NCBI RefSeq assembly: GCF_000016545.1
Contig: NC_009437.1
Coordinates: 2,754,501-2,818,500, forward strand
DNA from: Caldicellulosiruptor saccharolyticus DSM 8903
Lineage (GTDB): Bacteria > Bacillota > Thermoanaerobacteria > Caldicellulosiruptorales > Caldicellulosiruptoraceae
Reading direction: 5' to 3'
Length of the DNA stretch: 64,000 nucleotides
Of the stretch, positions 33,921 to 55,329 are shown piece by piece. The position numbers and the translations under genes were made by a program. Within the stretch, counting starts at the first letter, position 1. Each line of letters opens with the position of its first letter. The notes under the pieces were generated by a model. That model was given only the letters and a program-made list of their open reading frames with translations. It searched no databases and was not told where the DNA came from.

Positions 33921-33963
33921 TTCAAATTCCTCCTTTGTGCTGTTTTCCGGCTTAAACAAAAAA

Positions 33964-33984
33964 AGCAGGGCTTTAAACCCTGCT
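33964..33984 (-). terminator. Terminator after ssb
   Basis: AGCAGGG-TTTAAA-CCCTGCT then TTTTTTTG on the minus strand, directly after the ssb stop. Confidence 0.85.
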
Positions 33985-34410: not shown

Positions 34411-34430
34411 GATTTCTTCTCCTTTCTATT

Positions 34431-35078
34431 TTATTGATTTTGACTCATGTCTTTTAACACTATAAAAGTCCCAGTTTTTTCAAGCTGTTTTAGTTGTATT
34501 ACAGTATCCTTGTTACCCAAAACTTCGATATATGCAACGTTTATTGGTTGGTATGCGTTCTGCTGGGAAGTTACTTCTTCTATCGTTTTGAAATTTGCAT
34601 CGTACATATTTTTTACCTGAACAGTATCCAGTATCTGTATTGAAGGTTTTTGAGTTTTTGCATCAACAGCGTTTGATACAAACATCAATCTGACTGTATC
34701 ATACTTAGCAATAAATGTTGACGGTACAGGCTCAATTTTAATTAACATTGAATACTGTCCTTTAGATACATCTATTGGTGGCTTTACAGTCAGTTTTGCT
34801 GGTATAATTGGTTCACCTCTTTTGATGTCATACAGTACATACTTGTTCAAAACCTCAACCGGGTTTTTGGCAGCCGGTATTGGTGTGGGTGCCGCAACTC
34901 TTACCAGAGCCAGTTTGTCCTGTGTTATTTTCTCACCCTTTTTAATATCCATTGATGCAACTATTATGTTCTCAAACAACCCCTGGTTCTTCTTATTGAA
35001 GTAAATGTATTCGCCTGCTACTGTACCAACAGCAATCAGAATGGCAAGTATTGTTATTATTAGTTTTTTTAACTTCAA
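34431..35078 (-). CDS. cpaB: CpaB/RcpC-like SAF-domain pilus protein
   Basis: 215 residues from TTG 35078 (AAGGAGG upstream). N-terminal membrane helix (LIITILAILIAVGTVAGEYIYF), then a SAF domain (IIVASMDIKKGEKITQDKLAL, YVLYDIKRGEPIIPAKL) and a beta-rich C-terminal part. CpaB proteins act in the outer part of Tad/Flp pilus systems; in Gram-positives they sit outside the membrane. First example of several pilus genes here; shares the operon with the pilins upstream. Confidence 0.8.
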   Translation of the reverse strand: MKLKKLIITILAILIAVGTVAGEYIYFNKKNQGLFENIIVASMDIKKGEKITQDKLALVRVAAPTPIPAAKNPVEVLNKYVLYDIKRGEPIIPAKLTVKPPIDVSKGQYSMLIKIEPVPSTFIAKYDTVRLMFVSNAVDAKTQKPSIQILDTVQVKNMYDANFKTIEEVTSQQNAYQPINVAYIEVLGNKDTVIQLKQLEKTGTFIVLKDMSQNQ

Positions 35079-35098
35079 ACCTAAAAACACCTCCTTGT

Positions 35099-35809
35099 CT
35101 AATCCTGTGCAAAGTATGGGTTTTTTATATAGAATTCGTACGTCTGTACTACCTGACTTTCTGGTGTAACAAAGAATGTTATTGTATTGCCTGTCCCATC
35201 CCAAAAATTTGGCATGATTTTAAAGGTACAGGTTTGATATTCGCCATCTGTAGTAAAATCAACAAGTTTTACATTGCTTGATACTGAAACACTATTATCA
35301 TTTAGTGTCCCTACTTTTTTTTCGTTATACGTGCCACCATTTATTGCAGGTCCTTTGGCATACAGAGATAATGGCTCTGATGTTGCCTGAACACGTTTTG
35401 CACTGAATGACACTATATATGCTTTGTTCTTGTCCACTGTATAGGCATAGTTGGTTGCTGACGGTGAAAATACAAATCTTATAGCAACATACGTTGTATT
35501 TTTAAGTTGCTGGTAATAGATTTTTGCAACACCACCGGATATTTGACTGCCCAAGTCAACACCGTTTGTACCATCAATGCTTAGTTTCCACAAACTGCAT
35601 GTGGAAAGTCCTGTTGGGTCAGGTACAAGGTTTACATCTGGCATTGCAGCAGGGTCAAGGGTTTTCTCCAGATACTTGTTCATTGCAGAAACAATAGAAT
35701 TAGTAGTGTACGCACATGCAAGCAATGATGGCATGACTTGAATAACAATAAAAACTATCAACAGAGCAGCACCAAGTACTTCTGACGTACCTTTTTTGTT
35801 TTGAAGCAG
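35099..35809 (-). CDS. Prepilin-like protein with C-terminal beta domain
   Basis: The frame is open upstream of the first ATG and is closed by an in-frame TAG, so the start must lie between. CTG 35809 with GAGGTGAT five bases before is the best choice. The N-terminus then reads LLQNKKGTSEVLGAALL, a class III prepilin signal (Gly then x-S-E) followed by a hydrophobic helix. The remaining 190 residues are beta-rich (TYVAIRFVFSPSATNYAY, CTFKIMPNFWDG) like a jelly-roll carbohydrate-binding or minor-pilin domain. Probably a minor pilin. Confidence 0.65.
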   Translation of the reverse strand: MLQNKKGTSEVLGAALLIVFIVIQVMPSLLACAYTTNSIVSAMNKYLEKTLDPAAMPDVNLVPDPTGLSTCSLWKLSIDGTNGVDLGSQISGGVAKIYYQQLKNTTYVAIRFVFSPSATNYAYTVDKNKAYIVSFSAKRVQATSEPLSLYAKGPAINGGTYNEKKVGTLNDNSVSVSSNVKLVDFTTDGEYQTCTFKIMPNFWDGTGNTITFFVTPESQVVQTYEFYIKNPYFAQD

Positions 35810-35826
35810 AAACTATCACCTCTTTC

Positions 35827-37641
35827 CTACTGGGCTATGATGTTAATTGTAACTGATGAAAGTGAAGGAGTAACTGTTACGTCGCTGGTTGTTAAAGTTT
35901 CGCGTATTTGTAGTCTTGCATTTGAGAGGTCCATTCCCGGGGTAATGTCCGGGATTGGTCCGCCGTTTGTACATTGTTTCCATCCAAGCCATGTGGTCCC
36001 CCCATCAAGTGACAGATTGGATTCTATAACTACATTTGTTCCAGTAGGTGTTGTCGCAGTCCATGAAATATTAGAATCCTTTGCAATTTTGACCTGGCTT
36101 ATGTCATATACAGGTGAAATACGCATTCCTCCTCTGCCTGCTGTCAAAGTGTTATCAAAACTGCATTTGTAAGTAGTGTATTCGTCTATATTTAAACCCG
36201 TTGAACTTGAATATGCAGAAGATATTTCACTTTCGCTTCTTGTTTTACTGGAAATTCTCAATTCGTCAAAAAGAGCATTTGCTATAAATCCTCCAAGGGA
36301 AGATTGTCCCAAAAACAAAGTTTGATACTTGAAAACTGAGCTGGAGCCCAAGGTTCCAATTGGAGTACTTGAGTGTAATGTACCGTTTACATATAGCTTA
36401 ATAGAATCATTCTCCTTCCATGTTGCAGCAACATAATACCAGTTGTTTGGTCGCATACTGCTGTACGAACCTGTACCATATAACCCGGTACCGTAACCAT
36501 AGGAAGAATGTAAACCACCGTCAGAAAAGTCATACCAAATGTTATATGACTGTCGGTCTTCACTAGCTGAAATAAATCGTGAACCACCAACGCCTATATA
36601 CATGTTTCCTGTCAAATTAAAAGGCTTCACCCAGAATTCTACTGTTCCTTCCTTGGTATTAATAATATCTGCTAACGTTGTTGATACTAAGTCTGAACTT
36701 CTTGTAGTTCCGCCCGGTATCCAGGTCGTAGGCAAAGAAGTTTGAGCCGAAACTTGTTCCAGTTGCAACCCATCAACCCAGAACACCACTGAAGTTGAAC
36801 CTGGTACTATAATTTGAAATCCTGGTCTAAAACTCTGAGTAGTGCATGTGAAAGGTGGTGTGTAAATTCTCTGCCATGTTCCTGTTGCTGTAAACCAACT
36901 GGCATATAATAATTCATGAAGATAACCACCTGAAGAAGTAGTTACTCTCTCTGATATACATATCAGAGTTCCTGTTGGTGCCCAGATATAAGCACTGCCA
37001 ATAAAATAAGTATTAGCTGAGTATGTTGTTGAAATAGAATTTACAATTACTCCATGATTTTCATGACCATCATTGGCTCTTGATGTAGTATCTACCTTTA
37101 TTGAAGCACTTCCGATAAGTGCTTTCGATGTATCTCTTGAAATGGACGTATCCCAGTAAGATGAGAATCCGCTTATATCGGTTTCAGCACTGCTTTGGTT
37201 GGCAGTCAATAAATTAGCAGTTCCTCCTTCTACCAATAGTGCGCTTCCATATTTGCCCGCTTCGTATCTTGGCTGATTAGAACCTACCTGTGTAACGCCG
37301 TCCAGCTTGTAAGCAATACTGCTTCGTGAAAATGTAAGATTGGATGCTGTTGTAAGATTTAGACCGCCACTGCTTGTTGATACCGTATTTACAAGAGTAC
37401 CGCTCAAAAAATCACTCTGTGTATCTTCCATTAATATGAAGTCAGTTCCGTGTACAGGAATGCTATAACTGTTCCCAATTGTTAGTTGTCCTTTTATCTT
37501 TGTATCAACGGCAGCAATCAATTTATCAGAATTGATTGAAACATTTCTAACTGCTGGCATAATTTGAATCGCAAGGAACAGTATCAAAAGAGTTGCTCCA
37601 ACTATCTCTGCCATTCCTTTTTTACTCGTCCAGAAATTCAT
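35827..37641 (-). CDS. Large pilin with LamG-like lectin domain
   Basis: 604 residues from ATG 37641 behind GGGAGGTGG. The prepilin signal SKKGMAEIVGATLL and a membrane helix are followed by beta-rich regions and a concanavalin/LamG-like domain at about 340-500 (GTVEFWVKPFNL, NNWYYVAATWKENDSIKLYVNG, ALFDELRIS). LamG domains bind sugars or surface proteins. A pilin signal fused to a lectin domain suggests an adhesive minor pilin, perhaps at the pilus tip (inference). Confidence 0.75.
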   Translation of the reverse strand: MNFWTSKKGMAEIVGATLLILFLAIQIMPAVRNVSINSDKLIAAVDTKIKGQLTIGNSYSIPVHGTDFILMEDTQSDFLSGTLVNTVSTSSGGLNLTTASNLTFSRSSIAYKLDGVTQVGSNQPRYEAGKYGSALLVEGGTANLLTANQSSAETDISGFSSYWDTSISRDTSKALIGSASIKVDTTSRANDGHENHGVIVNSISTTYSANTYFIGSAYIWAPTGTLICISERVTTSSGGYLHELLYASWFTATGTWQRIYTPPFTCTTQSFRPGFQIIVPGSTSVVFWVDGLQLEQVSAQTSLPTTWIPGGTTRSSDLVSTTLADIINTKEGTVEFWVKPFNLTGNMYIGVGGSRFISASEDRQSYNIWYDFSDGGLHSSYGYGTGLYGTGSYSSMRPNNWYYVAATWKENDSIKLYVNGTLHSSTPIGTLGSSSVFKYQTLFLGQSSLGGFIANALFDELRISSKTRSESEISSAYSSSTGLNIDEYTTYKCSFDNTLTAGRGGMRISPVYDISQVKIAKDSNISWTATTPTGTNVVIESNLSLDGGTTWLGWKQCTNGGPIPDITPGMDLSNARLQIRETLTTSDVTVTPSLSSVTINIIAQ

Positions 37642-37674
37642 CAGATATTGCCACCTCCCGCATACAACAAAAAA

Positions 37675-37694
37675 GGGTGCTTTATATAGCACCC
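37675..37694 (-). terminator. Terminator upstream of the LamG pilin gene
   Basis: GGGTGC-TATATAAA-GCACCC then TTTTTT on the minus strand, just after the stop of the small membrane protein. Confidence 0.8.
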
Positions 37695-37697
37695 CGC

Positions 37698-37907
37698 CTA
37701 TTTAATTAACTGTGCTATTACTACAAGTGCTGCTGTTAGGACAACGAATAACCAGAATACTGATTTTACTGTACTAAGCTTTACAACGTTCTGTTTCTTC
37801 ATAACGTCAAATGGTACTGCAGATGAATATAAAATTGCACAAGTGAGATAAGTACCAATTCCTAAACCAGCAGCAATCATTGAAATTAAGTAAAGAAACT
37901 CTTTCAT
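37698..37907 (-). CDS. Small protein with two membrane helices (69 aa)
   Basis: FLYLISMIAAGLGIGTYLTCAI and VFWLFVVLTAALVVIAQLI are clear membrane helices joined by a basic loop (DVMKKQNVVKL). Not recognised. It lies 14 bases after the prepilin peptidase gene and ends at a terminator, so it belongs to the pilus operon, perhaps as an assembly factor. Confidence 0.65.
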   Translation of the reverse strand: MKEFLYLISMIAAGLGIGTYLTCAILYSSAVPFDVMKKQNVVKLSTVKSVFWLFVVLTAALVVIAQLIK

Positions 37908-37921
37908 GGTTCTAACCTCCC

Positions 37922-38365
37922 TTAAACAATATTTTTGAATATTAGAATTTTGATTATTATACTTAACACCATCCCTGGTATTAGAAATGGTGCAAGTGGC
38001 ATCTGTAACTTGAAATAATTATCTGCTGTTCTTTTGGCTTTTACATAACCAGTTATCATGAACAACAATAGCGTAAAGAAAATAGCAATGTATGCGTTAT
38101 ACCCCAGTAGTAACGTCAATGAAAACAGTAGTTTGACATCTCCTGCCCCAATTAGTTTAAATAACCACATTATAAACATTACTGCAAACAAACTTAATGC
38201 AAGCCAGAGATGTCCATTCTTTATCAGGTCAATTCTGAAAATTAAAATGGCAGCAATTATATTTATCAATACAGCAATGTTTGGTATTATCCTTGATTTA
38301 TAGTCTGTATACGCTGTCCAGCAGCATGTTATACATCCAACCAAATATGCTATCCATATCGTCAT
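37922..38365 (-). CDS. A24-type prepilin peptidase (TadV/CpaA)
   Basis: 147 residues, the short form without a methylase domain. Two catalytic Asp motifs: CWTAYTDYKSRIIPNI (first Asp) and KLIGAGDVKLLFSL (GxGD). Five to six membrane helices. It cuts the Gly of class III prepilins on the inner face of the membrane. The stop-start overlap with the TadE/G-like gene is 4 bases. The prepilins upstream and downstream are its likely substrates. Confidence 0.9.
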   Translation of the reverse strand: MTIWIAYLVGCITCCWTAYTDYKSRIIPNIAVLINIIAAILIFRIDLIKNGHLWLALSLFAVMFIMWLFKLIGAGDVKLLFSLTLLLGYNAYIAIFFTLLLFMITGYVKAKRTADNYFKLQMPLAPFLIPGMVLSIIIKILIFKNIV

Positions 38366-38913
38366 TGTCCAACCCCCGTTTCAAATATATCTATGTCTTT
38401 GTGTATCCTTATTGTTATATACTCACCAAAAACATCCGCCATGTAGTTTCGATGAATTCTGGTTGATATTACAATATGCATACCCGGATATTTAATCTCG
38501 TTTCCCCAACTGCACGTTGCAGGCACATCGTTGCCATCATATACTGTTATCTCCTCGATATTAATTGGGTCTTTTATTGGTCCTGCTTTGGGAATAAAGT
38601 TGTCATCAAGATTTAGGTTCTGCTTTAAAAAGTATTGGAATCTGTCGGTAATATCATCTTTCTGAAAATCTGACAGGTCGGAATCAACTGAAACATTGTA
38701 CAGTGCTGCAAGTGCCGAAACAACTGCTGCACGCTCAATATGTTTTTCCTCTTCTATTGCCATTGTCATATCTATCTGAAACATTGATAGCGGAAAAGTA
38801 ACAAAGAACAAAAGCACAAATGCAAAGAGTATCATTGCAGCTCCACTTTTATCATTCAAGATTCTTCTTGCTGACAGACACATATGGACCAATGGTCGCC
38901 TGAATCGTGTCAT
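38362..38913 (-). CDS. TadE/TadG-like prepilin
   Basis: 183 residues. Basic N-terminus, DKSGAAMILFAFVLLFFVTFPL (a Gly-preceded hydrophobic helix, but without the Glu of the others), then EEEKHIERAAVVSALAALYNV and a beta-rich exported domain (GMHIVISTRIHRNYM). Fits pseudopilins of Tad systems. It overlaps the preceding pilin gene by 62 bases in another frame. Confidence 0.7.
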   Translation of the reverse strand: MTRFRRPLVHMCLSARRILNDKSGAAMILFAFVLLFFVTFPLSMFQIDMTMAIEEEKHIERAAVVSALAALYNVSVDSDLSDFQKDDITDRFQYFLKQNLNLDDNFIPKAGPIKDPINIEEITVYDGNDVPATCSWGNEIKYPGMHIVISTRIHRNYMADVFGEYITIRIHKDIDIFETGVGQ

Positions 38914-39283
38914 TTGAAAGCCCTCCAGCCTTGATAAGCACTATTCGTTTCATTGTAAGCGGAACGGTAATCTTTAGTGCTACTTCTTCACCAAACTCTA
39001 CTGGGTATGGAGTGTAATCAATCTTAACTTGGGAAATATCAAATCCAGTACCTGCAAGGTCGTTTAAAAGATTACCGTAGTCTTCTGGAGTCAAACCACC
39101 TGTTGTTTCCATCTTGATAATGTAGGCTTTTGCAATTTCATCAAGCCTTGAATACTTTTGTAAGTCAAGAAACATCAGTATTGGATTTAAAGAAAGAGAG
39201 ATTAAAACAGGCAGGGCGATTAGTGCACCTATTAATTCTGCATTACCTTTTCTATTTCTGAAAAATAGCTTTAACACTTTCAA
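38852..39283 (-). CDS. Prepilin-like protein (143 aa)
   Basis: FFRNRKGNAELIGALIALPVL is the shared signal (KG, then N-A-E-L-I-G) at the head of one membrane helix, followed by RLDEIAKAYIIKMETTGGLTPEDY and a beta-rich part. The motif RxKGNAE is also seen in small pseudopilin-like proteins of clostridial integrative elements. Probably a minor pilin. Confidence 0.75.
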   Translation of the reverse strand: MKVLKLFFRNRKGNAELIGALIALPVLISLSLNPILMFLDLQKYSRLDEIAKAYIIKMETTGGLTPEDYGNLLNDLAGTGFDISQVKIDYTPYPVEFGEEVALKITVPLTMKRIVLIKAGGLSNDTIQATIGPYVSVSKKNLE

Positions 39284-39305
39284 ATCACCTCCCAGAAAAA
39301 AGAAA

Positions 39306-39330
39306 GGCAGGGTGTTAGAAGCACCCTGCC
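39306..39330 (-). terminator. Terminator downstream of the major pilin pair
   Basis: GGCAGGGTG/CACCCTGCC, 9-bp perfect stem, followed by TTTCTTTTTT on the minus strand. It would let the two small pilins be made in excess over downstream genes. Confidence 0.8.
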
Positions 39331-39543
39331 TTATTGAATTTGATTCAAGTAATTGAGGTTATTGTCCATTTTGCCGTTGAGGATGTTGAAGCTTGTACCA
39401 AGTGTAGTACCAATATTCTGTAGTGGTTTACCAAGTATAAAAATTAGAAAGAAAAGCAGAAAAGCAACGCCGATAACTTCTACTATACCTATTTGGTCAA
39501 CTATAAATGTCCTAACAGTTGCAGAGAATGTTTTCCTCAACAT
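39331..39543 (-). CDS. Flp-type small pilin 2
   Basis: 70 residues from ATG 39543 (GAGGGA upstream). FIVDQIGIVEVIGVAFLLFF carries the signal Gly-I-V-E-V-I-G and one hydrophobic helix, then KPLQNIGTTLGTSF and a short Asn-rich tail (NNLNYLNQIQ). Small size and single helix match Flp major pilins. Tandem paralog of the gene at 39564. Confidence 0.85.
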   Translation of the reverse strand: MLRKTFSATVRTFIVDQIGIVEVIGVAFLLFFLIFILGKPLQNIGTTLGTSFNILNGKMDNNLNYLNQIQ

Positions 39544-39563
39544 CCTGCTGTTTCCCTCTTGCA

Positions 39564-39761
39564 TTAGTTAATCTGGTTAAGATAGTTTAAGTTAGTGTTT
39601 AGCTTGTTGTTGAGTGTGTTATAACCACCACTAAGTGTAGTACCAATATTCTGTAGCGGTTTACCAAGAACGAAAACTACAAAGATAAGTAGAAACGCAA
39701 CACCTATTACCTCTGCCATACCTGTTTGGTCCTTCAAAAAATCTCTTATCATTTTTAACAT
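39564..39761 (-). CDS. Flp-type small pilin 1
   Basis: 65 residues. FLKDQTGMAEVIGVAFLLIF (signal Gly-M-A-E-V-I-G, helix), KPLQNIGTTLSGGY, tail NTNLNYLNQIN. Nearly the same tail as pilin 2, so the two arose by duplication and likely share the fibre. AGGAGG lies 6 bases before the ATG. Confidence 0.85.
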   Translation of the reverse strand: MLKMIRDFLKDQTGMAEVIGVAFLLIFVVFVLGKPLQNIGTTLSGGYNTLNNKLNTNLNYLNQIN

Positions 39762-39774
39762 AGTAAAATACCTC

Positions 39775-40497
39775 CTATAATAAAGTTTTTTTGATATATT
39801 CCAATGGCTTTATGCCATTGTAGACATTTATAATTTTAAAAAGAGATATTAACATCTCAAATGGTGCAGATATACCAACTTTACTGCCATCTCTAGCAAC
39901 CCAGTTTACACCCGTTTCTTTAAAACTAAGTCCCATTATTCTGGCTCTCAGTAAAATCTCAATATCAAATGCGTATCTGTTTGCTGTAAGCGGTTCAGAA
40001 AAAAGTGCTCTGGCTGCCTGCGGTCTGAAAAATTTAAGCCCGCACTGTGTATCATGTACGGATAATTGCAATACCTCATGAACCAAATGATTGAATATCT
40101 TGCTTATGAGTTTTCTCGGTATGCTTCTTTTTACAATTGAATCTGGCATGGAACGTGAACCTATAACAATATCATATTCGTCCAGTTTTGATATGAGTTT
40201 TTCCCATTGCTCAGGTGAAACACTAAGATCCGCATCAGAAAATCCTATGAATGACGGCTCTGGTGTAAGTGCCAGTGCCCTAAGTATCCCCGCCCTCACC
40301 GCATAACCCTTCCCCATGTTTTTGGACAACCTTACTACATGCCAGCCAAGGCTCTCACCTATCCTGTATGTGTCATCACCCGACCCGTCATCTACAAGTA
40401 TCATATCATATTGTTTTGACAGTTCTAAATACTTTTCAATCTGTGAGTTCATCCTTGCATATTCGTTGTATGCTGGTATCACTATTGCCCCTCTCAT
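39775..40497 (-). CDS. GT2 glycosyltransferase, dolichyl-phosphate mannose synthase-like
   Basis: 240 residues. AIVIPAYNEYARM, MILVDDGSGDDTYRI, KNMGKGYAVRAGI and IGFSDADLSV are the nucleotide-sugar and metal sites of Dpm1/ALG5-type enzymes, which load a sugar on a polyprenyl phosphate. HDTQCGLKFFRP is also typical. It lies just before the major pilins and after a GT-C-like membrane protein, the layout expected for pilin glycosylation. Confidence 0.85.
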   Translation of the reverse strand: MRGAIVIPAYNEYARMNSQIEKYLELSKQYDMILVDDGSGDDTYRIGESLGWHVVRLSKNMGKGYAVRAGILRALALTPEPSFIGFSDADLSVSPEQWEKLISKLDEYDIVIGSRSMPDSIVKRSIPRKLISKIFNHLVHEVLQLSVHDTQCGLKFFRPQAARALFSEPLTANRYAFDIEILLRARIMGLSFKETGVNWVARDGSKVGISAPFEMLISLFKIINVYNGIKPLEYIKKTLL

Positions 40498-41174
40498 CCT
40501 TTTTCACCCCCTCTCTTATTCTTTATTATTGCCAGTAATGAAAGCCCTGTGGGTAGTAACGGCAACAGATAATATTCCATGGACAGTATAAGAAAGAGCA
40601 ATCTGTTAAGCATTGATGGTATTGGTTTTAAATTGTCCCTGCCTTTTGTAAACATTCTGTATAGCACTTCTACTGGGAATAGCAGTGAATTGTAGTAGTA
40701 TATTTTGCAGTCGAATGTTTTGAATAGTTCTTTTAACTGTTTTTTTGTATATCTTCTGTAGTGCCCGCATACCCTGTCATGCTCTGAAAACAACCATGGG
40801 TGTGCTGGCACTGTTATTATTGCAATACCATCTTCTTTTAGGTTGTTACGAAGGTAGCGAAGGATTACTCTATCATCTTCTAAGTGCTCAAGTACGTCTA
40901 AAGCAAGTATAACATCATATTTGTCCTTTAGTTGCACTTCCTCAATTCTAGCTTTTATTATGTTATTGCCAGTCTTTTCTGCATTTGCATCTATGCCCGT
41001 GTATTCATAGAATTTTGAAAAATACGCTGGACCGCAACCTATATCCAATACTTTGGGTGTATGGTCCGTTTTGATGTGTTTTCGTATAAGTTTGTTTATA
41101 ATTTCGTATTTCCCCCGAAACCACCAGTGTGTTTCGTATAATGTTTGAGTCTTTTGAAGCTCTTCCCTGTTCAG
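40494..41174 (-). CDS. Class I SAM-dependent methyltransferase
   Basis: The frame is open upstream of the first in-frame start in the core. The extended N-terminus (YETHWWFRGKYEIINKLIRK) is typical of the family, so I start at CTG 41174, behind GGGAGGGCAGG. Core: VLDIGCGPAYFSKF (SAM motif I), YDVILALDVLEHLED, GIAIITVPAHPWLFSEHD. A C-terminal hydrophobic stretch (RLLFLILSMEYYLLPLLPTG) may touch the membrane. Sugar- or lipid-linked substrate is likely from the neighbours (inference). Confidence 0.75.
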   Translation of the reverse strand: MNREELQKTQTLYETHWWFRGKYEIINKLIRKHIKTDHTPKVLDIGCGPAYFSKFYEYTGIDANAEKTGNNIIKARIEEVQLKDKYDVILALDVLEHLEDDRVILRYLRNNLKEDGIAIITVPAHPWLFSEHDRVCGHYRRYTKKQLKELFKTFDCKIYYYNSLLFPVEVLYRMFTKGRDNLKPIPSMLNRLLFLILSMEYYLLPLLPTGLSLLAIIKNKRGGEKG

Positions 41175-41248
41175 TGCCCGCCACCTGCCCTCCCTATTAT
41201 TTTTGCTTTTTGGTTTCGTTGTCTGTATTGTCTGAAAAAATAAAAAAA

Positions 41249-41270
41249 GCAGGGCTTTATTTGTCCCTGC
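41249..41270 (-). terminator. Terminator after the GT-C-like gene
   Basis: GCAGGG/CCCTGC stem followed by TTTTTTT on the minus strand, overlapping the end of the gene. Confidence 0.8.
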
Positions 41271-41271
41271 T

Positions 41272-42672: not shown

Positions 42673-42686
42673 CTTTTAACTCCTTT

Positions 42687-43448: not shown

Positions 43449-43486
43449 TTTTCTCTTACCCCTTCTTTTGTCTTCTAAAAAAAATA

Positions 43487-43603
43487 AAAACCACAGACCT
43501 ATTATAGGTACTGTGGTTTTATTTTTTATATTCTTGTAGGACATTTTCTAAACATAACTTCGCTTGTTGTTTTTAGTATATCACAAAATTTTCGGTTTTG
43601 CAA
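43487..43603 (-). promoter_or_regulatory. Promoter and terminator/attenuator between tadB and tadC
   Basis: TTGCAA (43598-43603), 17-base spacer, TATACT (43575-43580), then about 55 nt and a hairpin AAACCACAG...CTGTGGTTT (43487-43520) followed by a T run. tadC begins 40 bases further on. The layout fits an attenuator or a short RNA, and resembles units at 17.8 and 57.5 kb (shared CTACA...ATrTAAAAA leader piece). Confidence 0.6.
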
Positions 43604-43610
43604 CAAATAC

Positions 43611-46754: not shown

Positions 46755-46779
46755 GAAAATTCACCTCCCTAAAAAAATA

Positions 46780-46813
46780 AAGCCTCTGGTGGGCAATAAC
46801 CCTCCAGAGGCTT
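46780..46813 (-). terminator. Terminator between the giant surface gene and the tad genes
   Basis: AAGCCTCTGG/CCAGAGGCTT, 10 bp, followed by TATTTTTTT on the minus strand. Confidence 0.85.
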
Positions 46814-46823
46814 CCTATACAGG

Positions 46824-49800
46824 TTAGTTCAGTATTTCTGTACCGAACGCAAGTGAACCTTTGATGTAAACCGGTAGTTCTACTTCTTTAACTGTGTCAG
46901 TTCCATCTGCGTTCTTTTTATATGCTCTTACCTTTACCCAGACCGTATCACCAACACGTAGATACGATACTCTGCCATATAATGAAATCATTTGTGTATA
47001 GTTAAATGTGGTGCTTGGATAATCAGTCCATTTATACGCTCCTGTGAACAGGTTTCTGTTGTAGCCTGTGTAACCATTGTAGTGTGAAATTGGGAACTGC
47101 AACTGCAAGGCTGTTGCATATGGGTTGAGTGTTTTTGTCGGGTCATCCTTGTACGGTATTTTCCCACGTCGTTCCTTGGGGTTTGTAATGTCGAGCGATA
47201 CCCATTCTTTTGTGTTGTTCGAACCTGACTTTATCACTTTCATTGGTACTATCATGCTGTTTTTGTCCTTGTATATCATTTTCCATTGTGTTGTGTCACA
47301 ATCCCACCAGCCATCAAAGTATTTTGTAACCTTTGTGCCTTTCTGAGGTTTATCTACTGTAGTGTCAACTCTATCGAAGAACGCTTCTACTTTGTATACG
47401 TAGCCTGTTGTTTTAGCGTGTACAATGACTGTTTCACCCCGAAGTATCTGATTGGTCGTTACCTCCTCGTTACAGGTTGGTTTGTGTTCCTTGAGCTTGC
47501 TCGTCCATGCCTGTATTGTTATGTCAGTGCTGATGTAATACGTCTGTACATACCAATTGCTCCACAGCGGTTTTAGTGATGATGACCTGCCAGTAGGATT
47601 GTCCTGAACCTTATACCCTATCTCATATGTGCCGTCATAGGTGTAACCAGCTTCCTCTAAGGTGTTCGGCAGTTTGTCAAAATACTGCGTCTGCCCGTTG
47701 AATTTGATATACCATTGCTCTGTGTTTTTCGGGTCATTATTAGGGTCAGAGTAAGTGGTTGCCGGTTTTAGCTTTGTCCTGTGGTCGGCAATTGTCATTG
47801 TGAATGTGCCTGTTGGTGGATTGTTTGTAAGTTCAGGTGTTGTGTCCTTGCTGGGTGAGTATATTTTAAACTGTTTTGTTGTTACTGCTGAGTAGTTACC
47901 TACAGAGTCTTTAACCTGCAATGATAGTTTGTAACTGCCTTCTGACATTGTTGCGATGTAGCTTTTGATATTGCTGATATTGTTGTTTGTGGTTTCTCCA
48001 AAGTCCTTGTTGGTGCTACCATCACTATTGTATATCCACCAGTGCCATGCTGTAATTGCATCACCATCAGGGTCATAGCTCTTATCAGTTAGATTGCCTG
48101 GCTGATTGCCCTTTAAAATCTCTGAGTCAATTGTAAAATCTGCTACCGGTGGGTTGTTGGAAACACTCAAATCTATCATTGCAATCTTAGGTTTGGACCA
48201 TACACCGATACCGTTTGGACCATCACAGTCCTGAACCGTAAGTTTGATAAGGTATATCTTACCACTTTGTAGTGTCATGTTCTGCAAGTTAGCAAGCGTT
48301 GTATCCGTCCATGTTGTATCGTCAAGTGTCTTATATTGCCACTTCCACGCTATTATGCCCTTATCAGCTCTGTTGTACTGATGGTCAGGGTCGTAGCTTT
48401 TATCGGTGATTGTTACCTTCCCAGTAGATTTGTTATATACTGCTGTAAAGTCTGCAATTGGTCTTCTGTGAACGTAGAGCACCATTTGCCGTTCAAGCTT
48501 TGACCAGAGCTTGTACTCATCAAAGTCGCTGCTGCCCGGTGGTGGATTGTCTTGGACCTGGAATGTTACTGTGTACTTTCCAACCTTGTTGAATACCTCG
48601 ATTGGAGCATTTAACCATATACCGTCAAATTCTGCTTTGCCAAGGCTGTTATCAAAGACTGTTTCGTCATGTTCATAGCGCCATCTCTGATTGATAATAA
48701 CGTCGTTCTCATAGTCTTCCCAGTATGGATAGTAAATGACCTTTTCCTCATCAGCAAGGACATATACCGGGTCTGGTGTTAACTGCGGGTTGGTGTATTT
48801 TGCTTTTATTACTCCAAGAATTGTATTGAACTGTCCTGCGTCGTATAAACCACCACCTGCTGGTGCATAGTTTACAAATTGTCTTATAGTGTATTGTTGC
48901 TTATTCGACTCTGGTAGCTTGTAGTCCCATGCACTGCTTGGAACTGTTGCATAAACAGCATAGTTGTTGAGTATAACATATTTTAGATGGTCCTTACTGA
49001 GCGCTGAGAAGGAATAGTAGTTCCCAAAACCGTTAGAAAAGTTATTACCCGTACCGTTTGAAACAAAAATTAAGTATTTGTCAGTTACATTTTCTGTAAG
49101 TTCTTTTATAGTATTTGCAGACAATCCTTCTATATTAACAGTTACAGTTGTTGTTTGCGGTACCAAAACAGTATAATAACCAACATAATTTTGTGCATAG
49201 CCATAGACTGCCCCAACATAATAACAATCATAGTACGCTATTTCTACGTAATTTATACCACTTTTATAACTTACTGAACCTGTTGAAACCCAATAGTTCG
49301 TACCTGGTGGATAATTTTGATAATAGGTAACTGGGTGCCTTACTCCAGTATTATCCACCCAGTATTCGTAGTATTGATATCCCGGCCCCAAGTATTCATT
49401 TTTGTAATCTATTTGCACCTGGTAAGGAGAACCAGATTTATAACAAGTTACTCCATTACATACAGTACTGTCAGGGAAGTTTGGAGTACTATTAGTTAAC
49501 GTAGTAGAAACTTGTTGGGAAACAGGTATATAGGTCGTTTCCGTTTTTGTATAGGAACCAACTATTTCTTTACTGTTGTCTATAATGTAATTTACTTCTA
49601 CACCATAGGGATATAGGTCGGATTTTAATTGGTTAAGAGAACTTTTTAATGGATTCACATCACTGTAATCTGTTACAACGTTGATAAAGATTTTCTTTTT
49701 CTCAACTTTACTACTGCTCAGTGTTGCAAAAGGTGCAACATTTAGGACTTCTATAGTTTTCTTGTCATCGTCTATGTTTGTTGATATATTCCTTCTTCTA

Positions 49801-52800
49801 TCATAAGGTGTTACAAACTGGTCAATAGTTTCTTGCCCAAATTCTTCTCTTACCCACAGCTCTATCTTATAGTTACCCACATTTGTTACTTTAAATGTAA
49901 TTGTTGTGTTGTTCCCACTATCAAAGTTTTCCAGATCAAATCCAAGTACCTTGTTGTAATCCCCTACTGCCTGCCATGTACCATCTGCTTTCCTGACATA
50001 CCATGTTTCGTTGTCGAAGTTTCCATCGTTATTGGAATCCCATGCATAGAACCATACATGCTTTGCTATTATATCATTGTCTGGGCTATAACTGTTGCTT
50101 GTAATCTGTATTGATGCTTGGGAATTATCTGCTGGGTCACGAAGTATCTTTGTTGGTGTTGTGAAACTGACAACAGGTTTCTCATCAGGCTTTATATCCA
50201 AATACCATGTCCCAGTAGCACTATTGCCATAGTTGTTTGTAAGTGTCAGGTCAACTCTATATCTACCTGCTACCTTAAATAAACAGTTCAGTTTTTGCGA
50301 ACCTGTTAAACTTTCTACCACGTTAATTGAGTTTGCTGGAATGCTACTGTCAACAGGGGTTATCTTCCATTGTGCTGCGCTCCAGATAATGTATGCTCTT
50401 CTCGAACCTGCATATGAACCCGATGCATCCAATACAACTTTTCTGTTTTCTTTTAGTGTTCCTGAAATATAGCAAACAGGTCGTGGTATAGCAGGAATAA
50501 CTGTTATACTTGTCTGTGCTGTCCCTGTAGCTCCTTTAGTATCCGTTGCAACCGCTGTAGCAGCATATGTCCCTGTTTCGTCGCTCCAAAATGTTGCAGT
50601 TGCCTGATTCTTATTCTGGGCAAAACCTTCGATATTCCCACCATTAGCTGTAATAGCTGTAATCGTTGCGCTATCATCTTTGTCCGTATCAGAAGCAGTT
50701 GCTATAAGAAATGCGTCATCTCCTTGAGGAATAACACTTGGTATTGCCTGCAGTGTCGCTGTTGGCGGGTTATTTTGTGGTTCTTCAACAGGTAAAATAG
50801 GTTGGTCCTCAGGTACAGGTTGGTCGTTAGGTACTTGGTCAGTATCATCTGTCACAACAACCCTGACTTTTACTGTTTTTTGCCCACTGTCCAGAGAATT
50901 AGTACCTACAGTTGCTCTAGAACGAGCAATGAATATCAGGTCTTTTCCATTCATATCTTTTTTAAGCACATACGTAAATGTTCGTGTAGCAGTTAGTGTC
51001 TGTTGCGTACCGCTTGCAGTCGGCGAAGGTAATTGTTCATAATCTGCCCTCACCCATACTCTGTGGTCTGTCACCTGTCCTGTTGTTGTAATCGTTGAAT
51101 TTGCTGTAATTGTAACACTTTTGACATCTCCTGGTTTTCCAGACAGTAGTGTTTTATCAGCAGTAAGGGTAAGGTCAATATCTGAACCGTCCGTTTCTAC
51201 TGGAACTGAAACAACTACTGTGTTTGTTTTCTTTTGTGACCCATCTGTAAAGTATAACGTTCCAGATACATCAAAATCCTCTGATGTTCTACTGGAGCTT
51301 GTCGCTATATTAACCTGCAATGTTGTGCTGGCACTTCTACTGGTTGTCGTAACAGTTTGTGTAGCTTTTTCATTCTGATTCTGTTTATGGATAGCAACAA
51401 AATCCCACTTTTGTATTGTTTTTGAACCTACCTCATCTATTTGTGCAGATACATTGATTTTAACTGTGTAAGTTTTGGGATTGCCAGCTGAATCAAGGTG
51501 TATCTTATCACTACTTGCTGCGGCAAGAACTGGCGTACCATCCTTGGGTGTTACTTTTATAGTAGCGCTGGTTGACGCTGTCCCTGACCAGTCTGAATTG
51601 TGCAGATTGCCACTTGGGTCTTTAACAACGTATCTAACCTTGCCATAGTATGCAGGTGTCCCTGTTTTACCGGGCTGGATGTATGTTGTGTTGTAATCAA
51701 ATGTCTTGCTCTGTGTGAAACTTGTAATAGTTGTAGCGGTTGTATCGTAGGATTCGCTGTAGTCAGGTGTTGTAGCGCTTTGAACTCTGTTTACATCTTT
51801 ATCAATCACAAAATCAAGCCTGACAAGTTTCCAGCCTGCTGGGACAGTAATGTTGCTGACTTTTGTTGGTTGTACTTTATGTTGGATTGTGGACGGTACA
51901 TACTGTCCGTTTGAGATTGTAACAGTACTTTGAGAAGGTGTTACTGAAAGTTGCAGGCTTGGTGCTGGCAAATTGATTACCCTGATGGTAAATGTCAAAG
52001 TTGCTGAATTTGGCTGAAGTGGATATTCACGTGTTCTGCCATCTCCTATGTCAAATATCACATGCGTTTGACCTGTGACAACCACCGTATTATCTCCAGT
52101 CTGCAACATGTTTGTTGGAATATCAAAATGTCTGCCTTCTGCCTGTGTCCTGAAAGTTACTGTGTCTGATTTTTTGTCAATAACTATTGCGTTTGTCCAC
52201 CTGTTTATGATACTGCTACTAACAGAACTGCCGTTGATTGTGATTGAAGTTATCCTTGTCTGATACTGCAAAACGTCATTTCTTGTAAGTGTGTTTTGGT
52301 CATAGTATGGATTTGTAGCACTCATTGTTCCAAGCTTATCCTCAAGCACACCATCAATGTAAAGGTCTATTGACGGCTTTGCAGTGTTCTTGGGGTCATA
52401 TTGCAAAACTGCACCATTCAGACTTGTTGTACCGCTACCATTTGCAAAACTCAAGCCTGAAACTATTATCCCATCAACCTTATCCGCTGTAACATTAGGA
52501 TTTCCGCCCTGTGCAATAAAGCCTGTATATGTTCTGTATCTAAGTCTGCCGGTAGAATCTTTCCATACAATTCTTGCTGAAGCGTTGTGGTTATTATCTG
52601 TGCCAAGGTATGCAACATATGTGGAAAGCCCGCTTGCTGATGTTACCTTCCCACTATCGACAAGAAGTTGCTTGAGTGTCTGGTAAGTTCCTGAATCATA
52701 CTCTTTTAGATTAAACAGGTTATCCCACAATGTTTGCCAGTCACTTGCAGAAACGTTGCTTGGGTTATACCCAGAAAGACCAAGGTCGTCTTTTGCCGAT

Positions 52801-53348
52801 GCAGGAACTTGGAAAAGTGGCACTACTTTGTCTGGTGTTATAACTTCTGGTGCATAGTCAGGCGGAAAGTTTGGATCAGAAAAAGGTGCACCCGATTTTG
52901 AATATCCCAGATACCTAAACCATCCACGAGTACCTGATGTCGCTAAATTGTATGACCCGTTGCTTTGCTGGGTTGCATAGAAATACCCATTCGATGCTGG
53001 TTTGAAGCCTGCGGGTGATACAAGGTGGTTTTGAGGTACATCATCAGGTGTGCCATATACAACTTGCCCACGCTCTGCATAGATCTCACAGTTGAAATAT
53101 AGGGTTTTGCCATTGACGTTGATAGTGGTAATGGGTTTTCGGGTTTGTACATCTACCACTCCTGCTTGTCCTGCCCACCATGAAGAATCGTGCCCACCAT
53201 AGCTTGTATATCCGCCATTGTAGACACTTGGGTCGTCAGCGGCTTTGGCATTATGCCAGATTCCTACTGGTGGAACAATGCTTAAAACAAGTGACAGAAT
53301 ACATAAAAAAGAAAGAGCTTTTAACAAGCTCCTGTGTTTAAATAACAT
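46824..53348 (-). CDS. Giant secreted PKD/Ig-like surface protein (2174 aa)
   Basis: Signal peptide (residues about 10-36, FLCILSLVLSIVPPVGIWHNAKA). Many beta-sandwich modules follow: an Ig-like block at about 860-950 (PPTATLQAIPSVIPQGDDAF), PKD-like blocks near 1030-1120 and 1600-1800 (NPPVADFTIDSE, DKSYDPDGDAITAWHWW), and an alpha/beta insert near 1215-1480 with a very Tyr-rich stretch (YYEYWVDNTG, YYDCYYVGAVYGYAQNYVGYY). No sortase signal or membrane tail is visible at the C-terminus, and no SLH domain. Probably an adhesin or pilus-associated surface protein. Next to the SLH-like protein gene and upstream of the tad genes. Confidence 0.75.
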   Translation of the reverse strand: MLFKHRSLLKALSFLCILSLVLSIVPPVGIWHNAKAADDPSVYNGGYTSYGGHDSSWWAGQAGVVDVQTRKPITTINVNGKTLYFNCEIYAERGQVVYGTPDDVPQNHLVSPAGFKPASNGYFYATQQSNGSYNLATSGTRGWFRYLGYSKSGAPFSDPNFPPDYAPEVITPDKVVPLFQVPASAKDDLGLSGYNPSNVSASDWQTLWDNLFNLKEYDSGTYQTLKQLLVDSGKVTSASGLSTYVAYLGTDNNHNASARIVWKDSTGRLRYRTYTGFIAQGGNPNVTADKVDGIIVSGLSFANGSGTTSLNGAVLQYDPKNTAKPSIDLYIDGVLEDKLGTMSATNPYYDQNTLTRNDVLQYQTRITSITINGSSVSSSIINRWTNAIVIDKKSDTVTFRTQAEGRHFDIPTNMLQTGDNTVVVTGQTHVIFDIGDGRTREYPLQPNSATLTFTIRVINLPAPSLQLSVTPSQSTVTISNGQYVPSTIQHKVQPTKVSNITVPAGWKLVRLDFVIDKDVNRVQSATTPDYSESYDTTATTITSFTQSKTFDYNTTYIQPGKTGTPAYYGKVRYVVKDPSGNLHNSDWSGTASTSATIKVTPKDGTPVLAAASSDKIHLDSAGNPKTYTVKINVSAQIDEVGSKTIQKWDFVAIHKQNQNEKATQTVTTTSRSASTTLQVNIATSSSRTSEDFDVSGTLYFTDGSQKKTNTVVVSVPVETDGSDIDLTLTADKTLLSGKPGDVKSVTITANSTITTTGQVTDHRVWVRADYEQLPSPTASGTQQTLTATRTFTYVLKKDMNGKDLIFIARSRATVGTNSLDSGQKTVKVRVVVTDDTDQVPNDQPVPEDQPILPVEEPQNNPPTATLQAIPSVIPQGDDAFLIATASDTDKDDSATITAITANGGNIEGFAQNKNQATATFWSDETGTYAATAVATDTKGATGTAQTSITVIPAIPRPVCYISGTLKENRKVVLDASGSYAGSRRAYIIWSAAQWKITPVDSSIPANSINVVESLTGSQKLNCLFKVAGRYRVDLTLTNNYGNSATGTWYLDIKPDEKPVVSFTTPTKILRDPADNSQASIQITSNSYSPDNDIIAKHVWFYAWDSNNDGNFDNETWYVRKADGTWQAVGDYNKVLGFDLENFDSGNNTTITFKVTNVGNYKIELWVREEFGQETIDQFVTPYDRRRNISTNIDDDKKTIEVLNVAPFATLSSSKVEKKKIFINVVTDYSDVNPLKSSLNQLKSDLYPYGVEVNYIIDNSKEIVGSYTKTETTYIPVSQQVSTTLTNSTPNFPDSTVCNGVTCYKSGSPYQVQIDYKNEYLGPGYQYYEYWVDNTGVRHPVTYYQNYPPGTNYWVSTGSVSYKSGINYVEIAYYDCYYVGAVYGYAQNYVGYYTVLVPQTTTVTVNIEGLSANTIKELTENVTDKYLIFVSNGTGNNFSNGFGNYYSFSALSKDHLKYVILNNYAVYATVPSSAWDYKLPESNKQQYTIRQFVNYAPAGGGLYDAGQFNTILGVIKAKYTNPQLTPDPVYVLADEEKVIYYPYWEDYENDVIINQRWRYEHDETVFDNSLGKAEFDGIWLNAPIEVFNKVGKYTVTFQVQDNPPPGSSDFDEYKLWSKLERQMVLYVHRRPIADFTAVYNKSTGKVTITDKSYDPDHQYNRADKGIIAWKWQYKTLDDTTWTDTTLANLQNMTLQSGKIYLIKLTVQDCDGPNGIGVWSKPKIAMIDLSVSNNPPVADFTIDSEILKGNQPGNLTDKSYDPDGDAITAWHWWIYNSDGSTNKDFGETTNNNISNIKSYIATMSEGSYKLSLQVKDSVGNYSAVTTKQFKIYSPSKDTTPELTNNPPTGTFTMTIADHRTKLKPATTYSDPNNDPKNTEQWYIKFNGQTQYFDKLPNTLEEAGYTYDGTYEIGYKVQDNPTGRSSSLKPLWSNWYVQTYYISTDITIQAWTSKLKEHKPTCNEEVTTNQILRGETVIVHAKTTGYVYKVEAFFDRVDTTVDKPQKGTKVTKYFDGWWDCDTTQWKMIYKDKNSMIVPMKVIKSGSNNTKEWVSLDITNPKERRGKIPYKDDPTKTLNPYATALQLQFPISHYNGYTGYNRNLFTGAYKWTDYPSTTFNYTQMISLYGRVSYLRVGDTVWVKVRAYKKNADGTDTVKEVELPVYIKGSLAFGTEILN

Positions 53349-53367
53349 TCAATCTCTCACCTCTTTG

Positions 53368-55242
53368 TTACTGTTTATATTTAGGATTTGGCTTTGCAAC
53401 TGGAACAGGATAAACTCTTTTCTCATTGAGCGGGTCATATGGTGTCGGTGCTGTATAAATGCAGTAATTTATTGTCTTCTTGTAGTATGGCTCTAAAGTG
53501 AAACTTACATAGATGTTGCCATACTTCTTTATAATCCTGTTCAGTTCGTTAACAGTCTTGAGTTTTGAAACATTATAAATGCTCAGGTCTTTTATAAACT
53601 CATCACGATATGCAAGAGGAATGAAGTTTGATAAAACCTTCCCATCACCTTGAACTTTTAGTTTTTCAGCATCAAGTTCATCATAAAGCCTAAAACCAAG
53701 ACTAAAGTTATTATCCCTACATCCTCCGAAACCTGCAACATCATAACCATCTGAAACAATCGATGCTAACCCCATACCATAATGTCCTGAAGGTATTATT
53801 CTGTAAATTGTTTTTGCAAAAGACATTGCCATAGGTTCTTCTATTCTAAATGTCGCTACTGGTGATGCAGGTGTCAATCCATCTGTACAAACCTCTGGCC
53901 CTTTATCAAAAGCCCATGAATAATACTCATCTCCTTTCTGTTTCCACACCCTTTCATATCCTAACCCAATTTCATTTTTAACTTCCCAGTAGTCTGTCTG
54001 CTTAACAGTCACCTCATCCAGCACATCTCTTTGCTTTTTATCGAACACTTTTGAAATCATCTGGACAGCATCTGAGCGTGTGAGCATCTTTGCAGGGTTG
54101 AAATAATAGACGCCTACATACAGCGCTGACTGGTCAGGTGTGATAATCCCAAGGTCTGCTAAATGTAACATTGAATCTCTGTAGAGTTGTGGTATTGATG
54201 AGTAGTCCTTGCAGTAGTATGCAAACCTTGTATGGTCTGTCGGGTATTTTCGTGGATAGTTCATCAAAAAGTCTTCAAAGTACATGTTGAAGTATGGATG
54301 CTCTTTGATGTTGTATTTTACCCTGTTACCTTTAAACTCTTCCATGCCACGTGTATGATAAAGATAAGTTACTTCTGCCATGTCACGTCTTGTAAGAGGT
54401 AAACCAAGATGCTCATATGCGTTGCTACCCATAAGTAATATTTCAACTGCCTTTTCAGGTGTATCTACATCCCATCTACTTGTGACATACTTCTTTGTAA
54501 TCAAATCAAAAGAAGTTTCAGGCACATTGTAGATAGGGTACTTTAACTTTTGTGCCTCAATCATAGGGTCTATTGTGAACAGCCAGCCCTTCTGGTATGG
54601 TCTTGGTGCATATACCACTTTGTCAGATTTCTTCTTGAATTCATCCAAAAGCCCTAAAAATATTGAGTTGCTATTAACGTAATTCTCACGTGTTATACTT
54701 ATTCCCTTGTATCTATCCCAAACATATTTTATCTCTGTTCTACTATCTGAATATTTGTACTCCATCACCAGTAGTTGATAGCCCTGAATAAACTCATCAA
54801 GGTCATAACCAACTACTGGTTGTCTAACAACATAACCATCTCCCCTAACTGGTCCACCAAAAAAGCAGATACCTCTCATGAACGCCTCAGTTGGTGGCAC
54901 TCTCCTGACTGATACTGGTATATTCTTATCCTTGAGTTCTGGCACAGCATTGATTAACTGCCAAACTATATAGCTTGCCTGAGCTCTTGTTAAGGGTTTG
55001 TCTTTTTTGACCTCAGCAGGTATCAACCCCATAGAAACAGCTTTTCCCCAGTAGTCAGCAATGCCATTGGGTTTTACTTTAGCACCCAGTAGCAGTGATG
55101 TTACAAATTCGCCTGCTGTGATGTAATCTATTTTAGCTGTTGCTGTTTTGATTGCCTGTGTGATTGTTCCTGCCTGTGCTGCCGGGAAGGAAAGGGTTAA
55201 AAGCAGGCTCAGGATGAGTATGAAGCTCAAAAGTTTTTTCAT
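53368..55242 (-). CDS. Secreted SLH-like domain protein (624 aa)
   Basis: Signal peptide (MKKLLSFILILSLLLTLSFP...AAQAG), then S-layer homology-type motifs: ITAGEFVTSLLLG, YWGKAVSMGLIPAEV and LTRAQASYIVWQLIN near the N-terminus, and HLADLGIITPD and MLTRSDAVQMISKVF near residues 365-410. The remainder is not recognised. SLH domains bind wall polymers. It lies 20 bases upstream of the giant protein gene and may anchor it to the wall (inference). Confidence 0.75.
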   Translation of the reverse strand: MKKLLSFILILSLLLTLSFPAAQAGTITQAIKTATAKIDYITAGEFVTSLLLGAKVKPNGIADYWGKAVSMGLIPAEVKKDKPLTRAQASYIVWQLINAVPELKDKNIPVSVRRVPPTEAFMRGICFFGGPVRGDGYVVRQPVVGYDLDEFIQGYQLLVMEYKYSDSRTEIKYVWDRYKGISITRENYVNSNSIFLGLLDEFKKKSDKVVYAPRPYQKGWLFTIDPMIEAQKLKYPIYNVPETSFDLITKKYVTSRWDVDTPEKAVEILLMGSNAYEHLGLPLTRRDMAEVTYLYHTRGMEEFKGNRVKYNIKEHPYFNMYFEDFLMNYPRKYPTDHTRFAYYCKDYSSIPQLYRDSMLHLADLGIITPDQSALYVGVYYFNPAKMLTRSDAVQMISKVFDKKQRDVLDEVTVKQTDYWEVKNEIGLGYERVWKQKGDEYYSWAFDKGPEVCTDGLTPASPVATFRIEEPMAMSFAKTIYRIIPSGHYGMGLASIVSDGYDVAGFGGCRDNNFSLGFRLYDELDAEKLKVQGDGKVLSNFIPLAYRDEFIKDLSIYNVSKLKTVNELNRIIKKYGNIYVSFTLEPYYKKTINYCIYTAPTPYDPLNEKRVYPVPVAKPNPKYKQ

Positions 55243-55329
55243 GCTCTATCAACTCCTTTACCAAAGTTTTTCTCTCACTATAGTTATACCATGATTTTTG
55301 AAAAAACAGCTTTGAACTTTTTATAATTC

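Follow-up and report, generated by a model that had tools for sequence, protein, structure and literature searches.

What does a pilus operon contribute to an integrative conjugative element (ICE) of a Gram-positive bacterium, and does it descend with that element? This question is raised by a 64,000-nucleotide stretch of DNA (hereafter, the window) from Caldicellulosiruptor saccharolyticus DSM 8903, which represents C1:2754501-2818500 of a single-contig genome of 2,970,275 bp. Positions 34431-55242 of the window (minus strand) hold an intact, exchangeable Tad-like pilus operon within such an element, of which a second, syntenic copy is present in the same genome at 1.551-1.618 Mb.

Among 12 surveyed genomes of the genus (one genome per species), the VirB4 gene of the element was found in 7 (8 loci), and TadA, the Tad assembly ATPase, was likewise found at 8 loci, in exactly these 7 genomes and in 0 of the 5 VirB4-negative genomes (P = 0.0013; Fisher's exact test), which showed two strong T2SSE matches only, as expected of PilB and PilT. 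VirB4 and TadA were separated by 34-60 kb, with fixed order and strand, and the tad block occupied the same slot in eight different elements with conserved gene order. The same VirB4-Tad linkage was observed in G012, a genome from another genus of the family. No chromosomal tad locus without an element was found in the 12 genomes, nor was a tad block lacking the recombination genes found at the same place in all relatives. As TadA occurred only with VirB4 in this survey, a chromosomal tad locus adjoining an unrelated island was rejected as an explanation, and the initial annotation of this DNA, which had assigned the block to a mobile element, is supported by its absence from the five genomes without the element VirB4 and by its shared slot.

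Identities and trees divided the eight elements into two backbone families that are 35-60% identical in most genes, i.e., family I (both C. saccharolyticus copies and the elements of genomes G007 and G008) and family II (G001, G002, G004 and G006). VirB4 proteins of different families were 54-60% identical, and those of family I were 88-99% identical to one another. TadA fell into four types, 23-55% identical between types, and each type was common to one family I and one family II element (alpha, window copy and G004, 94% identity; beta, second copy and G002, 92%; gamma, G007 and G006, 95%; delta, G008 and G001, 88%); the VirB4 proteins of each same-type pair were just 54-60% identical. The Spearman correlation of TadA identity with backbone identity was -0.20, as compared to 0.80-0.95 for VirB4 with other backbone genes. 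Approximately unbiased tests rejected congruence both ways (2.5e-4 and 7e-71), in that the family I clade was rejected by TadA, and a grouping of the window copy and G004 by VirB4 and SLT/M23; plain vertical inheritance of the cassette along with its element was therefore rejected. Because each Tad type is common to one element of each family, whole cassettes have been exchanged at one fixed slot.

Comparison of the window copy with G004 (blastn) placed the exchanged block at 33493-55305; its borders are sharp, one lying just 5' of the SLH gene and the other inside the HD gene. The reverse pattern was observed between the window copy and G008, where the backbone was 90-96% identical and the cassette was mostly unalignable save for blocks of the gene for a giant surface protein. 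The second copy retains fragments of an older SLH/giant gene pair next to its beta cassette. Together, these alignments and trees indicate that homologous recombination between conserved borders has replaced the cassette in one piece; likely recombination arms are the SSB-HD gene pair and the first part of the SLH gene, both conserved in most elements. The cassette is also under purifying selection, with ratios of nonsynonymous to synonymous substitution rates (dN/dS) of 0.04-0.19 for the Tad core genes and 0.12-0.31 for the surface proteins. The cassette and the genes at its downstream border are as follows.

33493..55305, minus strand: whole exchangeable cassette (blastn blocks with 84-85% nucleotide identity to the G004 element, the backbone being unrelated at the DNA level)
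33985..34410, minus strand: SSB, likely downstream recombination arm (Pfam SSB; kept in both backbone families)
33381..34019, minus strand: HD-domain protein, likely downstream recombination arm (Pfam HD; conserved)
31196..33379, minus strand: SLT and M23 wall hydrolase (VirB1-like) of the element backbone (Pfam SLT and M23; tracks the backbone, not the cassette)

The association of VirB4 and tad extends beyond the genus. A sample of 398 genomes of the phylum included 18 genomes outside the genus with a relative of this VirB4; in 9 of these 18, a TadA gene on the same strand was located no more than 50 kb downstream. This placement was observed for 13 of the 44 TadA hits in the 18 genomes, as compared to 0.39 expected (P = 5e-16), where the expectation ignores contig ends. 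Five genomes (G012, G238, G367, G310 and G331) carried a full Tad set near VirB4-VirB6-SLT/M23, and a giant surface protein was also present in the G367, G310 and G331 neighbourhoods. G238 (C2:67282-101668) carries two tandem Tad sets, one beta-like and the other closer to that of the window. A VirB4 query followed by a plasmid TadA query identified VirB4 beside tad on plasmids pVpro, pGspE55-1, pESS17301a and pAACI01 and on a Brevibacillus plasmid, four of which have an annotated PrgI; the hosts with this combination were Vallitalea, Geobacillus, Clostridioides, Alicyclobacillus and Brevibacillus, and tad was located upstream, not downstream, on the Geobacillus and Brevibacillus plasmids. TadA of the pGspE55-1 type was present on 7 Bacillota plasmids, with VirB4 in all 7 and within 35 kb on the same strand in 6. 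Plasmid searches with the window's own TadZ and TadA yielded few close relatives, and a contig profile scan with the VirB4 alignment yielded two short contigs only. Since the linkage recurs in two arrangements, we argue for a functional link between VirB4 and Tad.

In the direction of transcription, the upstream half of the block encodes an SLH protein, a 2,174-amino-acid surface protein, TadZ, TadA, TadB, TadC, a GT-C-like protein, a methyltransferase and a GT2 glycosyltransferase, and the downstream half two small Flp-like pilins, TadE-like and TadF-like proteins, a peptidase, a 69-amino-acid protein, two further prepilins (621 and 220 amino acids) and CpaB. The SSB, HD and SLT/M23 genes come after CpaB on the same strand. 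From the SLH gene to SLT/M23, spacing between genes is <=69 nucleotides, with the exception of 223 nucleotides 5' of the methyltransferase; at the CpaB end, junctions are all <=35 nucleotides (a gap of 20 nucleotides between CpaB and SSB, overlapping SSB and HD genes, and a gap of 1 nucleotide between HD and SLT/M23). The genes are listed in this order.

53368..55242, minus strand: secreted protein with SLH domains, 624 amino acids, first cassette gene (signal peptide; fold comparison of an AlphaFold model)
46824..53348, minus strand: giant secreted surface protein, 2174 amino acids, PKD-like, putative adhesin (homologues in the G367 and G331 elements)
45465..46754, minus strand: TadZ, MinD/ParA-like (alignment with 7 counterparts; no Pfam match)
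44341..45477, minus strand: TadA/CpaF assembly ATPase (Pfam T2SSE; best solved relative CpaF)
43611..44360, minus strand: TadB platform protein (position and homology to counterparts in other elements; no Pfam match)
42687..43544, minus strand: TadC platform protein (Pfam T2SSF, 7e-6)
41272..42672, minus strand: GT-C-like membrane protein (from its sequence)
40494..41048, minus strand: methyltransferase (Pfam Methyltransf_23)
39775..40497, minus strand: GT2 glycosyltransferase (Pfam Glycos_transf_2, 6e-23)
39564..39761, minus strand: Flp-like small pilin 1 (G/MAEVIG, Glu at +3)
39331..39564, minus strand: Flp-like small pilin 2 (G/IVEVIG, Glu at +3)
38852..39283, minus strand: TadE-like pseudopilin (G/NAELIG, Glu at +3; conserved in types alpha, gamma and delta)
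38362..38913, minus strand: TadF-like pseudopilin (without the Glu; conserved)
37922..38365, minus strand: prepilin peptidase, TadV type (Pfam Peptidase_A24, 3e-10; GAGD and the first Asp present)
37698..37907, minus strand: 69-amino-acid membrane protein (conserved in G004 and G007)
35827..37692, minus strand: 621-amino-acid minor prepilin with a LamG/ConA-like lectin domain (Glu at +3; Pfam Laminin_G_3, 1.4e-18)
35099..35812, minus strand: 220-amino-acid minor prepilin (G/TSEVLG, Glu at +3; open reading frame as called 35099-35761, with a probable start at a CTG near 35,812)
34431..35204, minus strand: CpaB/RcpC (Pfam SAF, 2e-9)

The coordinates and content proposed for 34431-55242 by the initial annotation hold throughout. 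TadZ, TadA, TadB, TadC, CpaB and the prepilin peptidase were recovered by Pfam or profile matches or by alignment with counterparts, the GT2 and the methyltransferase by Pfam, the surface proteins by the SLH fold and the 2,174-amino-acid secreted protein, and the SSB, hydrolase, recombinase (27029-27889) and replication genes on the same strand were also identified (RecT, RadC and a primase-like gene included). The predicted GT-C-like protein is conserved in G004, G006, G007 and G012, and it has no Pfam match. The N-terminal signals agree with the prediction of six prepilins, five of them with Glu at +3 rather than +5.

In profile comparison with solved structures, TadA matched CpaF far more closely than VirB11 (8.8e-58 versus 2.5e-35), and its best NCBIfam match was TIGR03819, though below the cut-off of that family; an assignment as the VirB11 of a type IV secretion system (T4SS) was rejected, as CpaF is far closer and a full Tad set lies alongside. 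For TadZ, matches to ParA/MinD were weak and the Walker A motif was degenerate in most copies; it is not recognisable in types alpha, gamma and delta and is retained in the G367 homologue. No secretin (RcpA) was recognised among the block proteins with Pfam, and none would be expected in a monoderm.

The five prepilin-like N-termini with Glu at +3 share the form G/x-x-E-x-x-G. Because small Glu+3 pilins recur in G004, G006, G007, G012, G238 and G367, this motif is not a chance occurrence. The block pilins gave no significant match to Pfam Flp_Fap and carry Glu at +3 in place of the canonical Glu+5 and Tyr+6 of Flp pilins, as given by Imam et al. 2011 (PMC3244431); for these reasons we use the terms "Tad-like" for the system and "Flp-like" for the pilins. 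Kinship to archaeal-type pilins, of which the GVSEVIG-like motif is reminiscent, had no Pfam support even at E 10, and the similarity is regarded as a resemblance only.

For the SLH protein, mean confidence of the AlphaFold model was low (41.6), and only the SLH regions (pLDDT about 80-90) were used; these gave a VIA-align Z of 12.8 to the SLH of Bacillus anthracis Sap, with SLH proteins occupying all of ranks 1-12. Identity of the giant protein to its G008 homologue alternated along the sequence (residues 1-400, 16-26%; 501-1200, 82-96%; 1201-1500, 17-39%; 1501-1900, 79-90%), a mosaic of conserved and variable parts that is consistent with a surface adhesin in which segments have been exchanged repeatedly. 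Glycosylation-type genes accompany cassette types alpha and gamma and are also present in the G012 element; the conserved N-terminus of the methyltransferase reaches upstream of the called gene, without an ATG, GTG or TTG start.

Comparison of the two C. saccharolyticus copies located the integrase, PrgI, VirB4, VirB6, VirD4 and ParM genes of the element just past the window, at 2.818-2.838 Mb. The integrase is a tyrosine integrase, and Pfam recognised VirD4 (PF02534, 1.4e-70), a VirB4-type P-loop and PrgI (1.5e-9); VirB6 and ParM were assigned by synteny and homology, the VirB6-like protein, which has no Pfam match, also by its size and membrane character. The G007 and G008 elements, which are 71.0 and 59.3 kb long, respectively, are flanked by repeats (46 and 47 bp) of the 3' half of tRNA-Trp. 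In C. saccharolyticus, the integrase end of the window copy carries the tRNA-Arg(CCT) 3' half, with the full tRNA at the second copy's distal end, and the integrase end of the second copy carries the tRNA-Trp half, with the full tRNA at 2.9387 Mb next to element-type sequence; a 1,565-bp duplication (99.9%) joins the 2.9387 Mb site to the distal end of the window copy. Recombination between the two oppositely oriented copies, followed by later rearrangement, would explain these mixed ends. The exchange of attachment-site ends (C1:1551100-1617941, 2764223-2838264 and 2938736-2941933) points to a large chromosomal inversion through both copies and to a second rearrangement with the 1,565-bp duplication.

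Two further parts of the backbone lie in the window.

27029..27889, minus strand: second tyrosine recombinase of the element (Phage_integrase found in two of 35 scanned element open reading frames)
11310..17109, minus strand: distal replication and recombination genes, i.e., RecT, a nuclease-like gene split by an insertion sequence (IS), RadC and a primase-like gene (synteny; Pfam RecT; RadC)

Three identical copies of a 409-amino-acid transposase, IS256-like by eye, are located at 13712-14941, 20554-21783 and 23561-24790, the first of which splits the nuclease-like gene (13087-15382). A HerA-type ATPase, a partner gene and a D12 methyltransferase at 6878-11163 (also C1:1572721-1574350) match PD-Lambda-5_B (1e-105) and form a probable anti-phage system that is sited differently in the two element copies. 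Directly 5' of the cassette (55330-56988), a helix-turn-helix gene, an ImmA/IrrE-type metallopeptidase and a PIN-like gene match the candidate defence families PDC-M69A/B and PDC-S70; this set, which was found in only some of the elements, could alternatively represent an ICEBs1-like ImmR/ImmA switch. Between cassette and backbone, a plus-strand gene pair that resembles a toxin-antitoxin system (59412-60132) is nearly identical in G008.

As to function, we consider it rather probable that the cassette encodes a pilus of the element for recipient capture by a conventional T4SS. TadZ, TadA, TadB, TadC, CpaB and the peptidase would assemble a thin Tad-like filament of small Glu+3 pilins, which the lectin-type minor pilin would cap or decorate in the window copy, while the SLH and giant mosaic proteins would decorate the donor wall. 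Filament and adhesins would catch a recipient cell and draw it near, and the separate T4SS (VirB4, VirD4, VirB6, PrgI and SLT/M23) would then move the DNA. Cassette exchange and changes in the giant-protein mosaic may alter which recipients are caught, or may evade pilus phages or exclusion. Several points weigh against this proposal. We infer the single transcript, pilus assembly, recipient capture and passage of DNA through a separate T4SS, and likewise the link between pilus and transfer and all other function. Among the Pfam matches listed, which include those of 35 further element open reading frames, none identified a MOB relaxase, so that conjugation itself is deduced from the T4SS; the second tyrosine recombinase, which is conserved in most elements, is a speculative candidate for a TcpM-like relaxase. 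The window copy is damaged (three IS256-type copies and a displaced distal end), and its own element is probably no longer mobile. A Lysinibacillus plasmid with a related T4SS showed no tad in the 42 kb read. Finally, adhesion to substrate is possible, given that plant biomass is degraded by the hosts and that a minor pilin has a lectin-like domain.

This last point is the basis of the main rival explanation, which we judge unlikely, i.e., that the pilus, lectin pilin and giant protein fix the host to plant biomass or biofilm for its own benefit and are merely carried by the element. The LamG/ConA-like pilin, the SLH and giant surface proteins, the variation of the cassettes, which resembles that of niche genes, and the membership of the host in a genus of known biomass degraders are all in keeping with such cargo. 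On the other hand, the cassette is packed against the SSB, HD and T4SS wall hydrolase genes on one strand, it is present in 8 of 8 genus elements whereas cargo usually comes and goes, and the same linkage occurs in elements of Geobacillus, Clostridioides, Paenibacillus, Alicyclobacillus and Vallitalea, which have other life styles.

It is very improbable, in our assessment, that the Tad machine forms part of the channel for DNA, by analogy to a proposal for PAPI-1, in which a type IV pilus works with VirB4 and VirD4 only. Neither VirB8 nor VirB11 was clearly recognised with Pfam among the element proteins, the recognised T4SS set is small, the TadA family is related to VirB11 and the linkage to VirB4 is fixed; however, the element does have VirB6, PrgI and SLT/M23, other Gram-positive systems achieve transfer with neither VirB11 nor a pilus, and some plasmids with a related T4SS have no tad in the region read. 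Identities of SLT/M23, VirB6 and VirB4 are moreover independent of Tad type, which is difficult to reconcile with close co-assembly. Of the two roles that the initial annotation had offered, attachment before transfer is preferred to a transfer route, as a VirB4/VirD4/VirB6/PrgI/SLT-M23 apparatus, mostly outside the window, belongs to the element itself and as cassettes of 23-55% identity in the same backbones suggest loose coupling.

Slightly less credit still is due to a module for exclusion or phage escape, in which pilus phages or same-type exclusion would favour rare cassette types and attachment would be secondary. The four types in two backbones, the giant-protein mosaic and the difference in type (alpha and beta) between the two elements of one cell would follow from it, but the last of these comes from a single two-element cell, neither an exclusion gene nor a phage was identified, and variation would be accounted for rather than presence. 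Chance capture of a chromosomal tad locus, once, by an element in which it is now inert is largely refuted, as the partial decay of the window element (IS copies, displaced end) is set against the low dN/dS of the Tad core, the lack of a chromosomal tad in the genus and recurrence in many Bacillota elements.

Among known systems, the capsule (cps) loci of pneumococci are exchanged whole between strains through conserved flanks; this is likewise a cassette swap of a surface structure, but of a chromosomal capsule locus and not of a pilus on a conjugative element. The type IV pili of IncI2 plasmid TP114 and of PAPI-1 have a role in mating-pair formation (PMC9045228, PMC5297154), and Pseudomonas PAPI-1 and IncI R64/TP114 share with the elements studied here an element-encoded type IV filament adjoining a T4SS; in these systems, adhesin variation (PilV shufflon) shifts recipient specificity (PMC5297154, PMC9045228). 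They differ in being Gram-negative type IVb systems with a secretin and site-specific inversion of one adhesin tip, as compared to a Gram-positive Tad-like machine that is replaced whole through recombination between elements. Their pilus genes are of the type IVb set (PilS/PilV, the PilQ ATPase and the secretin PilN); with an ATPase of the CpaF type and no recognised secretin, the block would work like these systems without being a member of them. Closer in setting are linear plasmids of Cutibacterium acnes, i.e., Gram-positive transferable plasmids with tad near VirB4/TcpC-like genes, for which a tad-encoded pilin was detected on cells; their authors call the functional link between tad and conjugation unclear, and the plasmids are actinobacterial, with no cassette exchange described in the available portions of these reports (PMC5696575, PMC9119108). 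Gram-positive tad operons are widespread in Clostridia and include TadA/B/C/Z/V and Flp-like pilins without the canonical motif; unlike the operons here, which are in ICEs beside T4SS genes, no tie to conjugative elements and no Caldicellulosiruptor is mentioned in the accessible part of that work (PMC3244431). LPxTG polymer adhesins (e.g., PrgB of pCF10; PMC12857230) are also element-encoded surface adhesins for mating-pair formation, but they are sortase-anchored single proteins.

A 2025 review states that Gram-positive systems encode no conjugative pili. No relevant paper on a Caldicellulosiruptor tad or ICE was found in our literature search, nor, among open-licence papers, any account in which Tad cassettes are a standard module, open to exchange, of conjugative elements in Bacillota; Tad cassettes that are exchangeable and form part of conjugation operons in Gram-positive bacteria appear to be undescribed. 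As a tentative extension, possible though short of an even chance, Tad-like pili may be the organelle with which conjugative elements of a large class in Bacillota generally form mating pairs, with cassette swaps resetting recipient range or exclusion, for which the resetting of recipient range by the PilV shufflon of IncI plasmids offers a parallel. If this were true, Gram-positive conjugation would not be pilus-free. Overall, these data suggest that Gram-positive conjugative elements, so far regarded as devoid of pili, may catch recipients by means of interchangeable pili; pilus-based recipient choice by such elements is now directly testable, with natural donors carrying four different cassettes.

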